The translations under genes and the position numbers were made by a program. A model generated the notes under the pieces. It was given only the letters and a program-made list of their open reading frames with translations, made no database searches and had not been told where the DNA came from. This document shows, one piece after another, positions 1,445-58,424 of a stretch of DNA of 64,000 bases. Position 1 is the stretch's first letter, and each line of letters starts with the position of its first letter. This DNA is from Armatimonadota bacterium (lineage in GTDB: Bacteria; Sysuimicrobiota; Sysuimicrobiia; Sysuimicrobiales; Humicultoraceae), in NCBI GenBank assembly GCA_031081585.1, contig JAVHLY010000013.1:1-64000 (forward strand), read 5' to 3'.

Positions 1445-1478
1445 GACGGCGCCCCCAGGGACCCCGGTGGGCGCCGTC
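1445..1478 (-). promoter_or_regulatory. Strong hairpin between riboswitch and Liv-type lipoprotein gene
   Basis: GACGGCGCCC (1445-1454) is the exact reverse complement of GGGCGCCGTC (1469-1478), giving a 10-bp perfect stem with a 14-base loop. On the minus strand it lies about 40 bases downstream of the GEMM aptamer and ends 3 bases before the alternative GTG at 1441. No T-run follows, so it is not a standard intrinsic terminator. It may be the riboswitch expression platform acting on translation, or a Rho-type or transcript-stabilising element. The stem is seen directly; the role is inferred. Confidence 0.5.
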
Positions 1479-1515
1479 GTGACAGCGCCTGCACACGCGC
1501 GCCGCGCACCCCGGC

Positions 1516-1587
1516 GGCAACCCGGCGGGCCCGGGTGGGCTCCGTGGCTTTGCGTCCCCGCCTCGCGGCGGGTTTGCCCTTGTCGCC
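1516..1587 (-). promoter_or_regulatory. GEMM (c-di-GMP-I) riboswitch aptamer
   Basis: Read on the minus strand, the conserved GEMM blocks occur in order. GGGCAAACC (1571-1579) is followed by a perfect CCCGCC-GCGA-GGCGGG hairpin with a GNRA tetraloop, then GGGACGCAAAGCC (1546-1558), a second GC-rich hairpin, and a GGGTTGCC 3' end. GGCGAC (1582-1587) pairs with GTTGCC (1516-1521) to close P1, with one G-U pair. The aptamer lies between the lytic transglycosylase gene and the Liv-type lipoprotein gene. The position that separates c-di-GMP from the cGAMP-preferring subclass looks like the c-di-GMP form (G), from my manual alignment to the Vibrio aptamer. The second hairpin looks short, so the tetraloop-receptor contact may be reduced. 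Confidence 0.88.
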
Positions 1588-1672: not shown

Positions 1673-2773
1673 TCAGCCGCCCCCGACCCGGCGGCTCCCC
1701 GGCACCGACCGCGGGCTTCCTTCGGGCGACGGGCGGCGGTCGCCTTCGGTCGGCGACGCCGGATAGCGGGCCAGCAGCCGGCGGTAGAGTGTCATGACGT
1801 TGTAGACGTACCAGCGGGTCTCCGCGTAGGGCGGGACGCCCCCGTACCGCGCCACCGCGCCCTTGCCCGCGTTGTAGGCCGCCAGCGCCAGGTGGAGGTT
1901 GGTCCAGCCGTACCGGTCCAGGTGGCCCCGCAACACCCGCACCGTCCCGTAGACGTTCTGCACCGGGTCGTCGGCGTCCACTCCCAGGGCGGCGGCGGTG
2001 GCCGGCATCAGCTGCCCCAGCCCCATGGCCCCCTTGGGCGACCGGGCCCGCGGCGCGAACCCGGACTCGATGGCGATCACCGAGACAATCAGGCGCGGGT
2101 CGAGGTTGTAGTGGTGGCCGTAGCCTAGGATGGCGGCGGCGATGAGCGAGGCCTCCACCTCGCTCAACGCCGGGTTGTAGGCGCGGGCGAGGCGGTGGTA
2201 GGTGCGCGGGTCGAGCACCGCCGGCGCCGCGGCCGGAGCGCGGCGCGCCGCCGGCGAGGTCAGCGGCTGGAGGGCCCACAGGCCGCGCCGCGCCAGCTCG
2301 GCGGCCGGGCCGGCGGGGCGCAGCCGCAGGACCTGCCGGAAGGCGTGGCGGGCTCCGGCCACATCACCCCGCTGCGCCTGCACGTACCCGAACCACAGCC
2401 ACAGGTCGGGGCTGTGGGGGGCCAGGGCGAGGGCCCGCCGCAGCACGGCGCGCGCGTCGGCGAGACGGCGCCGGTGGTAGAGGACGGCGGCCAGCCACTG
2501 GTGAGCCTGCGGGTCGCGCGGCCGCAAGACCACCGCGCGGCGGAAGGCCGCCTCGGCGGCGCGCAGGTGCCCGCGGCGATAGAGCGCTACCCCGTGCGTC
2601 AGGGCGGAGGGCGGCTCGGCCCGGGCTGGCACCGCGGCGGCGGGAGCGGGCGGGCCGGCGGACGCGGCGGCGGCCGGGGCGGCAGACGCGGCGGCGGCCG
2701 GGGCGGCCGGGCCGACGGACGTCGCCACCACCGCCCCCGCGAGCAGCAGGAGCACGGCCGCCCGGCGGGTCAC
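1673..2773 (-). CDS. TPR-containing SLT lytic transglycosylase, exported
   Basis: This is a murein lytic transglycosylase of the soluble-lytic-transglycosylase (goose-lysozyme-like) type, which cleaves the MurNAc-GlcNAc bond outside the membrane. It has a signal peptide (residues 1-30), an Ala/Pro-rich low-complexity linker (about 25-55), three or so TPR units (about 57-165) and an SLT domain (about 195-330). The domain shows the catalytic Glu in IAIESGF (about residue 236), GAMGLGQLMP, and the LALAAYNAG block. The C-terminal 30 residues are charged and low-complexity. The GTG start overlaps the Roadblock gene stop (GTGA), which suggests translational coupling. TPR units in front of SLT suggest assembly in a cell-envelope complex. 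Confidence 0.9.
   Translation of the reverse strand: MTRRAAVLLLLAGAVVATSVGPAAPAAAASAAPAAAASAGPPAPAAAVPARAEPPSALTHGVALYRRGHLRAAEAAFRRAVVLRPRDPQAHQWLAAVLYHRRRLADARAVLRRALALAPHSPDLWLWFGYVQAQRGDVAGARHAFRQVLRLRPAGPAAELARRGLWALQPLTSPAARRAPAAAPAVLDPRTYHRLARAYNPALSEVEASLIAAAILGYGHHYNLDPRLIVSVIAIESGFAPRARSPKGAMGLGQLMPATAAALGVDADDPVQNVYGTVRVLRGHLDRYGWTNLHLALAAYNAGKGAVARYGGVPPYAETRWYVYNVMTLYRRLLARYPASPTEGDRRPSPEGSPRSVPGSRRVGGG
2661..2708. repeat. Two tandem 24-bp units in the transglycosylase linker
   Basis: Two adjacent 24-base units (2661-2684 and 2685-2708) are identical except for the last base. They encode the AAPAAAAS-like low-complexity linker after the signal peptide. The repeat is in frame and probably arose by slippage. 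Confidence 0.8.
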
Positions 2774-3123
2774 GTCAACTGCTCCACCAGTTCGCTGCGA
2801 CGCCTCTTGATGGCCAGCCGCGCCCGGGCCACGTTGCCGCCGGCCCGCAACACGACGGCCACGAAGTGCTCCGGGGTGAGGGCCATGACCAGCAGGGCCA
2901 GGCGGTCCATGGTGACGGAGACCGCGTCGAGGTCGCCGCCGTCGAGCTTGCGGGCGCAGAATGCCCCCAGTTTCATCAGAGTGGCCAGGTCGGCGGCCAT
3001 CCGCCCCAGGTCCACCCCGCCCTCCTTCACCACGACCTCCACGACGGTGCCGTCCATCCCGCCCACCGCGGCGGCGCGGGCGTCGTCGAGGATGAGTTCC
3101 TGCAGGAGGGGGCGGAGGCCCAT
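2770..3123 (-). CDS. Roadblock/LC7 domain protein
   Basis: A 117-residue single-domain protein. Its pattern (an N-terminal helix, a GMDGTVVEVVV strand, a central helix with DLATLMK, then MDRLALLVMALTPEHFVAVVL) fits the Roadblock/LC7 fold. Bacterial members (MglB-like) regulate small Ras-like GTPases or cell polarity, usually beside the GTPase gene. No MglA-like GTPase gene is seen here, so the partner is unknown. The gene sits between the HD-GYP protein and the lytic transglycosylase, overlapping the latter by 4 bases, so an envelope or polarity role is possible but inferred. Confidence 0.75.
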   Translation of the reverse strand: MGLRPLLQELILDDARAAAVGGMDGTVVEVVVKEGGVDLGRMAADLATLMKLGAFCARKLDGGDLDAVSVTMDRLALLVMALTPEHFVAVVLRAGGNVARARLAIKRRRSELVEQLT

Positions 3124-3197: not shown

Positions 3198-4823
3198 TCA
3201 CGAGCCCTCCCGCCACATGCGCAGCTGGATGTCGAAGGGCGGTTTGGTGGCCAGGACGCGCAGGAAGGTCTCCACGACCGCCGGGTCGAGGGTGGTGCCC
3301 GCCATCCGCCGCACCTCCTCCACCGCCTCGGTCAGGCTCTTCCCGCGCCGGTAGGGGCGGTCGGAGATGAGGGCGTCGAAGGTGTCGGCCACGCGGATGA
3401 TGCGCGCGCCGAGCGGGATCGCCTCCCCGGCCAGCCCGTCGGGGTAGCCGGTGCCGTCGTAGCTCTCCTGGTGGTGGAGGACCAGGTCGACGAGGGGCCG
3501 GAAGGGCCGCATCTCCCGCAGGATGGCCGCGCCGCGCTCGGCGTGCTGGTTCACGATCAGCCGCTCCTCGGCCGAGAGGCTCCCGCGCTTGCGCAGGATG
3601 TGCTCGGGGGTGGCGATCTTCCCGATGTCGTGCAACAGGCTGGCCAGGCGGATCTGCTCCACCTGCTCGGGCGGCAGGCCCATCTCCGCGGCGATGGCCG
3701 CCGCGCTGGTGGCCACCCGCTGGGAGTGGCCGCGGGTGTAGGGATCCTTCGCCTCCAGCGCGGCGGTGAGCGTGTTCACGGCGCTGTAGAGGAGGTCGCG
3801 CAGCTGCTCCTGCACGCGCGCGTCGTGGATGACCACAGTGGCCTGGTCGGCCAGCACGCGCAGCGCTTCCACCTCGTTCCGGGAGAAGCGCCGCCCGTTG
3901 GAGCGCCCGGCCAGGGCGAAGCCGAGGGTCCGCCCCTCGATCTGGAGGGGCACCGCCAGCGCGGCCGCCGCCTCCAACCCGGCGAAGGACTCGGTCCACT
4001 CCGGGTCGAGGTCCATCCGCTCCGTCACCGCCACCTCACCCGCCCCCAGCACCCGCGCCACGACCCCGCTGTCCGGCAGCACCCGCCGGCCGCGCCACTC
4101 CCGCAGCTCCAGGTTGCGCACGCCGGCCACCGTCGGCACCCCGTCCTCGTCCAGCAGGGCCACCAGGCCGACGTCGGCGCGCCCCACCTCCAGGAGGTCC
4201 GTGAGGAAGCGCTCCACCCGCGTCTCCAGGGGGAGGGCCGCCATCTGGCGCATCGTCGAGGCGGCGCGGTCGAGCCGCTGCCACTGCGCCCGCGCGGCGC
4301 GGGCCGCCTCCAGCCGGGCGAGGAGGCTGCGGCGGTGGAGGAGGCGGGCCGAGCCCAGCACGCCGCCGAGGAGGGGGAGGAGGACGGCGGTCTGCACGAC
4401 CGCCCGCAGGCCGCTCTGCGCACCGGCCAGCAGGCCGAAGACGGCCGCCGCGGCCAGCCCGGCCAGCGCCCCGCTGAGCGGGCCGGTCCCGACCGCCGAC
4501 CAGGCCAGGACGACCGGGAAGTACAGGTAGAAGACGCTGTCCGCCCCCGCGGTCAGGCGGGTGAGCCCGCCGACGAGGAGCAGGTCGGTGGCCAGCCAGG
4601 CGGCCTCCGCCCGGGCGCGGTGCCGGGTGCGGGCGAGCAGGAGGGGCCCGAGCACAGTGCTGACCGCCAGCAGCCCCAACAGGAGGAGGGGCCCGAGCGG
4701 AGAGCGGTGGGGCAGGGCGCCGGCCAGGCCGGCCGAAGGGTCGACGAGGACGAAGAGGACGCCCACCGCGACGGCGGCGAGCCGCAGGATGAGCACGCTC
4801 CGGGTGTTGTCGGTGAGCCGCAC
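3198..4823 (-). CDS. Membrane GAF-HD-GYP protein (putative c-di-GMP phosphodiesterase)
   Basis: 541 residues. About five hydrophobic segments (residues 10-165) are followed by a coiled region, a GAF domain (about 200-335) and an HD-GYP domain (about 345-530). HD-GYP metal ligands are visible: LLHDIGKI (HD about 398-399) and the HHQESYDGTGYP block (about 450-461), close to the consensus. HD-GYP enzymes hydrolyse cyclic di-GMP to pGpG or GMP; GAF domains sense small ligands. The GTG start at 4823 precedes the first membrane segment. The gene heads a same-strand run (Roadblock, transglycosylase, riboswitch, Liv-type lipoprotein), so a c-di-GMP degrading enzyme lies upstream of a c-di-GMP riboswitch. 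Confidence 0.9.
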   Translation of the reverse strand: MRLTDNTRSVLILRLAAVAVGVLFVLVDPSAGLAGALPHRSPLGPLLLLGLLAVSTVLGPLLLARTRHRARAEAAWLATDLLLVGGLTRLTAGADSVFYLYFPVVLAWSAVGTGPLSGALAGLAAAAVFGLLAGAQSGLRAVVQTAVLLPLLGGVLGSARLLHRRSLLARLEAARAARAQWQRLDRAASTMRQMAALPLETRVERFLTDLLEVGRADVGLVALLDEDGVPTVAGVRNLELREWRGRRVLPDSGVVARVLGAGEVAVTERMDLDPEWTESFAGLEAAAALAVPLQIEGRTLGFALAGRSNGRRFSRNEVEALRVLADQATVVIHDARVQEQLRDLLYSAVNTLTAALEAKDPYTRGHSQRVATSAAAIAAEMGLPPEQVEQIRLASLLHDIGKIATPEHILRKRGSLSAEERLIVNQHAERGAAILREMRPFRPLVDLVLHHQESYDGTGYPDGLAGEAIPLGARIIRVADTFDALISDRPYRRGKSLTEAVEEVRRMAGTTLDPAVVETFLRVLATKPPFDIQLRMWREGS

Positions 4824-57218: not shown

Positions 57219-58424
57219 TTACTTCTTCTTCAGCGGCGGCGGGTTGATCCGGAGCGTCTTGACCAGCCGGTTCTGCCCCCACTTCGCCGGGTCGGCCGAC
57301 TCGATGCGGATGACGAAGTAGGTCGCCGGAGTCGGGTCGCCCTTCTCGTCAAAGGTGTAGGTCTGGGTGAGGCCCTTGAAGCCCCGGATCTTGCGCACCT
57401 CGTTGGTGACCTGCAGCCGCGTGGGCTTCTTCCCGCCGGCGGCCTTGACAGCGTTGGCGATGGCCGTCAGGCCGATCCAGCACGACTCGTAGGCCTGGAC
57501 GGCGAAGGGCTCGGGGTCCGCCCCGAAGCGCTTCTTGTAGTCGGCCGCAAACTTGGCCGCCCCCGGGTAGAAGGAAGCCGGGCCCGCCACCGTCGTGTAG
57601 TGCATACCGACGATGGCCTGACCGGCGATCCGCGCCAGGTCGGAGGAGTCCATGCCGTCGGGCCCCAGGAACTTGGCGGTGATACCCTTGGCGCGGGCCT
57701 GCTTGAAGAAGACTCCCGCCTGGTTGTAGATCCCGCCGAAGTAGATCAGCTCCGGCCGGCGGGCGGCGATGGGCGTGAGGATCGGGTCGAAGTTGGCCGT
57801 CTCCTCCGTCCCTTCGAAGCCCAGGATGCGGATCCCGTTCTGGGGGGCGAACTGGCGGAAGAACTCCGCCACGCCCTGGCCGTAGGCGGTCTTGTCGTGG
57901 ATGACGTAGGCGCTCTTGACCTTCAGGTCCTTGCCGGCGAACTCCGCGCCCACGCGGCCCTGGACGTCGTCACGGCCCACCACCCGGGTCACGTTGCGGT
58001 ACCCGCGGTCGGTCACCACCGGGTTGGTGTTGGCCGGCGAGATCATGGCCAGGTCGTTGTCTTTGTAGACCTCGCTGGACGGGATGGCCACGCCGGAGTT
58101 CAGATGGCCCACCACGAGCAGGATGTCGGGGTCGGTGACCAGGTTCTTGGCGTTGGCCACGCCCACGTCCGGCTTGGCCTGGTCGTCGAAGGGCACGAGC
58201 TGCACCCGCCACCCGGGCAGGATCTTGGCGGCCTGCTGCTCGATGCAGAGCTGCGCGCCGTTCTTGATGGCCGTCCCCAGCACGGACTGCCCGCCCGACA
58301 GGGGGCTCTGGGTGGCAATCTTGATGACGTTCTGCTGGGCCCCCACGGGTCCCTGTCCGGCCACCAGGAGCACCAGCATCGTCAGGACGGTCGCCAGCAC
58401 AACCGGGACTCGTCTGATCCGCAT
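57219..58424 (-). CDS. livJ: Branched-chain amino acid ABC transporter substrate-binding protein (second system)
   Basis: 401 residues. Signal peptide (VPVVLATVLTMLVLLVAGQGPVGA) then IKIATQSPLSGGQSVLGTAIKNGAQLCIEQ, VVGHLNSGVAIPSSEVYKDNDLAMISPANTNP (Ser/Thr ligand contacts of LivJ), AYVIHDKTAYGQGVAEFF, and FVQAYESCW-like AVQAYESCWIGL. The GHLNSG and SPANTNP blocks are those of Leu/Ile/Val-type receptors. ATG at 58424 has GGAGGGGAG upstream. The adjacent complete permease/ATPase set makes this the most likely true branched-chain amino-acid importer of the window. Confidence 0.95.
   Translation of the reverse strand: MRIRRVPVVLATVLTMLVLLVAGQGPVGAQQNVIKIATQSPLSGGQSVLGTAIKNGAQLCIEQQAAKILPGWRVQLVPFDDQAKPDVGVANAKNLVTDPDILLVVGHLNSGVAIPSSEVYKDNDLAMISPANTNPVVTDRGYRNVTRVVGRDDVQGRVGAEFAGKDLKVKSAYVIHDKTAYGQGVAEFFRQFAPQNGIRILGFEGTEETANFDPILTPIAARRPELIYFGGIYNQAGVFFKQARAKGITAKFLGPDGMDSSDLARIAGQAIVGMHYTTVAGPASFYPGAAKFAADYKKRFGADPEPFAVQAYESCWIGLTAIANAVKAAGGKKPTRLQVTNEVRKIRGFKGLTQTYTFDEKGDPTPATYFVIRIESADPAKWGQNRLVKTLRINPPPLKKK

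Follow-up and report, generated by a model that had tools for sequence, protein, structure and literature searches.

GEMM RNAs precede dozens of different genes (PMC7266159). In class I (c-di-GMP-I or GEMM-I; RF01051), the nucleotide at position 20 bears on ligand choice, with G20 favouring c-di-GMP and A20 (G20A) favouring cGAMP (PMC6274999), and in C. difficile the flgB operon has a transcriptional OFF switch, the Cd1 riboswitch (PMC9262584, PMC6366702). Two groups of binding protein also enter the comparison: the glutamate TAXI proteins VcGluP, whose affinity drops 213-fold on loss of Y45 and 990-fold on loss of Q93 (PMC11574862), and TtGluBP (1us4); and the Liv-type (HAAT) amino-acid binding proteins, for example 3td9. 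Here we describe a c-di-GMP-I aptamer (GEMM-A, or aptamer A) in a window made up of the first 64,000 bases of C13, one of the 66 contigs of a draft genome of 2.88 Mb (G000:C13:1-64000). The locus shares with known c-di-GMP-I riboswitches an above-threshold match, the canonical contacts, a leader position, c-di-GMP enzyme genes, and sister aptamers before pilin-like genes. It differs from the usual case in that its first gene encodes a solute-binding lipoprotein. The target had been proposed to be an uncommon one, and a search of open papers turned up no report of a GEMM target of TAXI/TRAP or Liv type, although this is not proof of novelty. We regard the sensor as ordinary and its target as uncommon and conserved.

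To establish the identity of the aptamer, we searched the 64-kb window with Rfam cmscan. RF01051 matched over its full length on the minus strand, from 1588 to 1513, with 51.0 bits, the gathering score being 35. The E value of 4.9e-07 refers to the whole 64 kb and 4,227 families, and this was the sole non-tRNA match in the window. The aptamer carries GGGCAAACC and GGGGACGCAAAGCC, its P2 is capped by a GCGA (GNRA) loop, and its P1 (GGCG/CGCC) is short. An earlier note on this DNA had named these landmarks and called a c-di-GMP-I riboswitch from them, and on both counts it was right; of the span that it gave (1445 to 1587), the aptamer stands with the corrected limits above, the rest being a 34-nt hairpin (1478 to 1445). 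GEMM-A lies 84 nt 3′ of the preceding gene's stop and approximately 70 to 160 nt before the candidate start codons of the next gene on the same strand (1441 to 1354).

The ligand type was read from an alignment of 30 aptamers of these genomes, in which Vc2 numbering was transferred from PMC6274999 and PMC9262584. At the G20 equivalent the window aptamer has G, as do nearly all of the others, and at the conserved A47 it has A. Six GGDEF matches in the genome, together with an HD-GYP gene with motifs in the window, make it likely that c-di-GMP is both made and degraded in the cell. That the aptamer senses 3′,3′-cGAMP instead is very improbable: the orthologous aptamer of G003 (L072 7879-7974), which also stands before the lipoprotein gene, has the cGAMP-favouring A at position 20 (PMC6274999), but the window aptamer has kept G, and genes of both c-di-GMP enzyme types are present. 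We conclude that GEMM-A is, judged by its sequence, a genuine and ordinary class I riboswitch aptamer of the c-di-GMP (G20) type, and it is predicted to bind c-di-GMP.

The gene order around GEMM-A was examined with a simple codon-usage caller, whose starts are approximate and which may miss short genes. Reading along the minus strand, the order is GAF-HD-GYP gene, roadblock-like gene, TPR-SLT lytic transglycosylase gene, aptamer, lipoprotein gene, TAXI gene. The first (3198 to 4823) encodes a membrane GAF-HD-GYP protein, a predicted c-di-GMP phosphodiesterase (PF13487, 157 bits; GAF_2, 48 bits) with the motifs HDIGK, HHxExxDGxGYP-like, and VADxFDA. The roadblock-like small protein (2770 to 3123) has no Pfam match in the window copy, and its orthologue matches Robl_LC7 weakly (14.2 bits, under the cut-off). 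The TPR + SLT lytic transglycosylase gene (1673 to 2773; PF01464, 74.6 bits) is the conserved upstream neighbour of the aptamer. An HD-GYP gene does lie upstream on the same strand, as the earlier note had pointed out, but the roadblock-like and TPR-SLT genes intervene before the aptamer is reached. The order reported there behind the riboswitch, a lipoprotein and then a TAXI receptor, was borne out. The Liv/ANF-type solute-binding lipoprotein gene (Peripla_BP_6) occupies 242 to 1411 of the minus strand, with an uncertain start (GTG 1441, ATG 1411, or GTG 1354), and is followed at 3 to 185 by the N-terminal 60 residues of a TAXI (NMT1_3) binding-protein gene, which is cut where the contig ends at base 1.

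The remainder of the operon could be followed onto contig C9. A matching TAXI C-terminus lies at C9:2-412 of the same genome, and we infer the C13-C9 junction from synteny with G001, G005, G006, and G007. C13 and C34 are identical over their first 99 bases, and a second TAXI copy (C34/C15) is the probable cause of the break at the start of C13. Behind the TAXI remainder, C9 encodes a protein of about 267 amino acids without a Pfam match, a 249-amino-acid seven-helix (7TM) protein, and a protein of about 350 amino acids. Further along stands a second aptamer (aptamer B, C9:3193-3270), approximately 5 kb after aptamer A and 3.6 to 3.8 kb behind the lipoprotein gene, which closes the five-gene operon and leads genes for a sigma factor, a roadblock protein, and pilin-like proteins with GspH and N_methyl matches. 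A T2SSE/MshEN ATPase gene adjoins the cluster on the opposite strand; pilin-like proteins with a methylation motif and a PilB/GspE-type ATPase, as shown by these GspH, N_methyl, and T2SSE+MshEN matches, are features of a type IV pilus-type locus. The second TAXI copy, on C34 (L108 1-3695), accompanies a broken paralogous lipoprotein gene and has no aptamer; it stands behind Liv permease/ATPase genes and, at a greater distance, the gene of a ring-cleaving dioxygenase. The window itself contains, at 57300 to 58415, one more gene of Peripla_BP_6 type, which shares about 26% identity with the lipoprotein 3′ of GEMM-A.

To determine how broadly this arrangement is conserved, we compared the locus across related genomes, which are few, related MAGs and do not count as independent events. 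Armatimonadetes CSP1-3 has the same locus, as have other MAGs of the Armatimonadota, and from these relatives we take the phylum of the window genome, which would belong to the CSP1-3 group. This group now bears the name Sysuimicrobiota, in a paper that mentions neither c-di-GMP nor riboswitches (PMC11604079). The order aptamer, lipoprotein, TAXI was found in six genomes (G000, G001, G003, G005, G006, and G007). In four genomes of one genus (G002, G008, G009, and G010), the lipoprotein and TAXI genes are absent, the 7TM gene is kept, and aptamer A is kept in place, directly preceding the operon's next genes, namely the gene without a Pfam match and that of the 7TM protein. All 10 family genomes that have the 7TM gene also have aptamer A, and 9 of the 10 have aptamer B, the contig of G002 ending near that point. 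Of 43 genomes, 20 gave a match to the 7TM protein itself, a weak one in three cases; these comprise all family members but G004 as well as family f4, in which the same cluster occurs without aptamers. In the 7TM tree, the receptor-less genus nests with G003 and G006 (support 96/98), and receptors are found in both subclades and in f4; loss of the receptors is therefore the simpler reading. Since aptamer A was retained where the receptors were lost, its constant partner is the membrane module and not the receptors. A riboswitch near distant Peripla_BP_6 loci of other phyla was also sought, and the only candidate was rejected: an Anaerolineae MAG contig (L152 881-1632), probably misassembled or misbinned, with the aptamer and a truncated lipoprotein gene very like that of G006.

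The two receptors resemble amino-acid binding proteins. The lipoprotein has a lipobox and a full-length Peripla_BP_6 match (PF13458, 206 bits versus 31.7), both shared with Liv-type proteins, and its nearest solved structure is the branched-chain amino-acid binding protein 3td9; five further genomes have orthologues of it behind this aptamer. Unlike the Liv-type systems, the operon has no Liv permease/ATPase genes, and only the broken C34 paralogue stands behind such genes. The 60-residue TAXI fragment of the window scores 20.2 bits against PF16868, under the cut-off of 27, whereas a complete orthologue reaches 281 bits. The nearest solved relative of the TAXI orthologues is Thermus thermophilus 1us4 (1.7e-59), and they keep the VcGluP/TtGluBP contact residues Y45, S75, Q93, and E125, of which the incomplete window copy spans only the Y45 region. 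The predicted TAXI ligand is accordingly glutamate or glutamine. The differences from VcGluP and TtGluBP are that the second binding-site tyrosine, Y200, is replaced by Ile, Leu, or Phe and that the operon TAXI has no adjoining permease. A TAXI with its permease inside the operon had at first been assumed from the 3.7-kb spacing; gene calling refuted this, finding no permease in the operon of any genome.

The permease may nevertheless be encoded elsewhere, in which case the TAXI protein would be the receptor of a split transporter and c-di-GMP would tune how glutamate or an amino acid like it is captured. Five of the six receptor genomes (G000, G003, G005, G006, and G007) have a fused TRAP permease that is unlinked to the operon and has no TAXI gene beside it; this permease shares 65 to 78% identity with those of G004 and G020, which adjoin the closest permease-linked TAXI. 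This matching clade of permease makes the split transporter a serious rival, and the retained contact residues and the kinship with 1us4 suit it too. However, G001 has the receptors and, among its matches, no unpaired permease of that clade; the genus without receptors keeps the riboswitch; and the 7TM, sigma factor, and pilin-like genes would go unexplained. We therefore hold this reading to be possible but, on the whole, doubtful. In G000 the permease gene is on contig C50 (L096 3171-5772), followed by DUF1850, and five family genomes have a similar neighbourhood.

The three proteins encoded behind the receptors (about 270 amino acids, 7TM, and about 350 amino acids) gave no usable Pfam match. 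The 7TM family (alignment A2; L079 1260-2009), which has no Pfam model, occurs in two families of the order, f1 and f4. The AlphaFold model of the 7TM protein has a mean pLDDT of 91, and its Foldseek matches are rhodopsin/GPCR-like, none of them significant (best E, 0.13). Foldseek returned nothing credible for the protein of about 350 amino acids, which has a winged-helix-like (wHTH) end. One scheme for these proteins is that the venus-flytrap-type lipoprotein and the TAXI protein dock from outside on the seven-helix protein as parts of a split receptor, which would signal through the two proteins flanking the seven-helix protein to a riboswitch-led sigma factor and to pilus genes, c-di-GMP thereby gating nutrient sensing; we consider this arrangement rather unlikely.

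Taking aptamer, operon, and neighbourhood together, we lean toward a broader reading, in which GEMM-A, by attenuation in the leader, would control a five-gene operon within a c-di-GMP-controlled pilus or surface locus, with the membrane module as the fixed target and the receptors as accessories. Some observations weigh against it: family f4 carries the cluster without a riboswitch, the 7TM model has no significant fold match, and the window hairpin on its own does not exceed chance. The operon comprises an amino-acid-type binding lipoprotein, a glutamate-type TAXI protein, the protein of about 270 amino acids, the seven-helix membrane protein, and the winged-helix-ended protein of about 350 amino acids. 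It is framed upstream by the HD-GYP phosphodiesterase/roadblock/lytic transglycosylase block and downstream by riboswitch B with its sigma factor, roadblock, and pilin-like genes, beside the MshEN-type ATPase. The two receptors would act as accessory inputs that pass extracellular amino-acid availability to the membrane module; what ties the receptors to the 7TM protein is gene order only. The earlier note had suggested that the c-di-GMP level sets solute capture. The G20-type aptamer, the GGDEF and HD-GYP genes, and the order kept in six genomes speak for a c-di-GMP link, whereas the missing operon permease, the continuation of the operon into the gene without a Pfam match and those of the 7TM and wHTH-ended proteins, the second riboswitch, and the genus that lost its receptors and kept the switch argue against solute capture as the whole story. 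Solute capture through the unlinked TRAP permease is possible as an accessory role. The functional reading should thus shift to a c-di-GMP-controlled membrane/pilus locus with accessory amino-acid receptors, in which what c-di-GMP controls is probably a unit for surface sensing and not the ordinary uptake of nutrients. The invariant target, a membrane module in a pilus locus, is close to the classical GEMM target class. If this reading is true, c-di-GMP decides in an uncultured phylum on the display of amino-acid receptors and a pilus-tied membrane module, the range of GEMM targets extends to orphan solute receptors, and there is a testable route to the function of a conserved, undescribed seven-helix protein family.

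The predicted attenuation was examined in the stretch between GEMM-A and the lipoprotein gene. The hairpin at 1478 to 1445 of the minus strand (−30.3 kcal/mol) is a terminator-like stem without a U-tract and the probable expression platform. Its longest uninterrupted stem, 11 pairs, was equalled in 60 of 300 shuffles and so is not beyond chance taken alone; it sits, however, at the same place as the hairpins of relatives, four of whose loci exceed all 300 shuffles. The uninterrupted stems 3′ of aptamer A reach 18 pairs in G007, 18 in G005, and 21 in G001 (0 of 300 shuffles), and 12, 14, and 10 pairs in G006, G003, and G009, respectively. The G007 hairpin has a true U-tract, and a long hairpin also follows aptamer B in all four loci tested. 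A terminator-like hairpin 3′ of the aptamer is thus beyond chance in relatives and less clearly so in the window.

The likeness to Cd1 is that a hairpin soon follows the aptamer and that the hairpin's 5′ arm could pair with the 3′ strand of P1. This possible pairing makes a Cd1-like OFF switch plausible, although the statistics do not carry the pairing itself. To the eye it seemed persuasive, but complementarity of the two strands is clearly above shuffles only in G007 and, in a difference from Cd1, not above chance in the window, where ON or OFF are both possible; a between-clade strand swap showed no preference. We keep this antiterminator as a suggestion. As with Cd1, the predicted attenuation would probably be OFF at high c-di-GMP; because the lipoprotein start codon is uncertain, GEMM-A may instead act by translational control. 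The window hairpin also bears on whether the switch is decaying in this species, the aptamer being real by descent and the expression platform no longer working. The missing U-tract, an aptamer that is the second weakest of the seven in the genome, a 7TM protein whose terminal branch is the longest in its tree, and the already broken paralogous lipoprotein gene on C34 would fit decay, but the tested contact nucleotides are intact, the lipoprotein and downstream genes are open, and relatives of the same subclade have the clean stems of 18 and 21 pairs. We judge such decay improbable.

Other aptamers of G000 precede pilin-like genes and a VWA/HD-GYP pair. The aptamer on contig C4 (L080 7618-7693) carries C at the equivalent of position 20, has RF03168 (c-di-GMP-I-UAU) as its best-scoring family, and precedes a gene for a CarboxypepD_reg/CEMIP-like surface protein.
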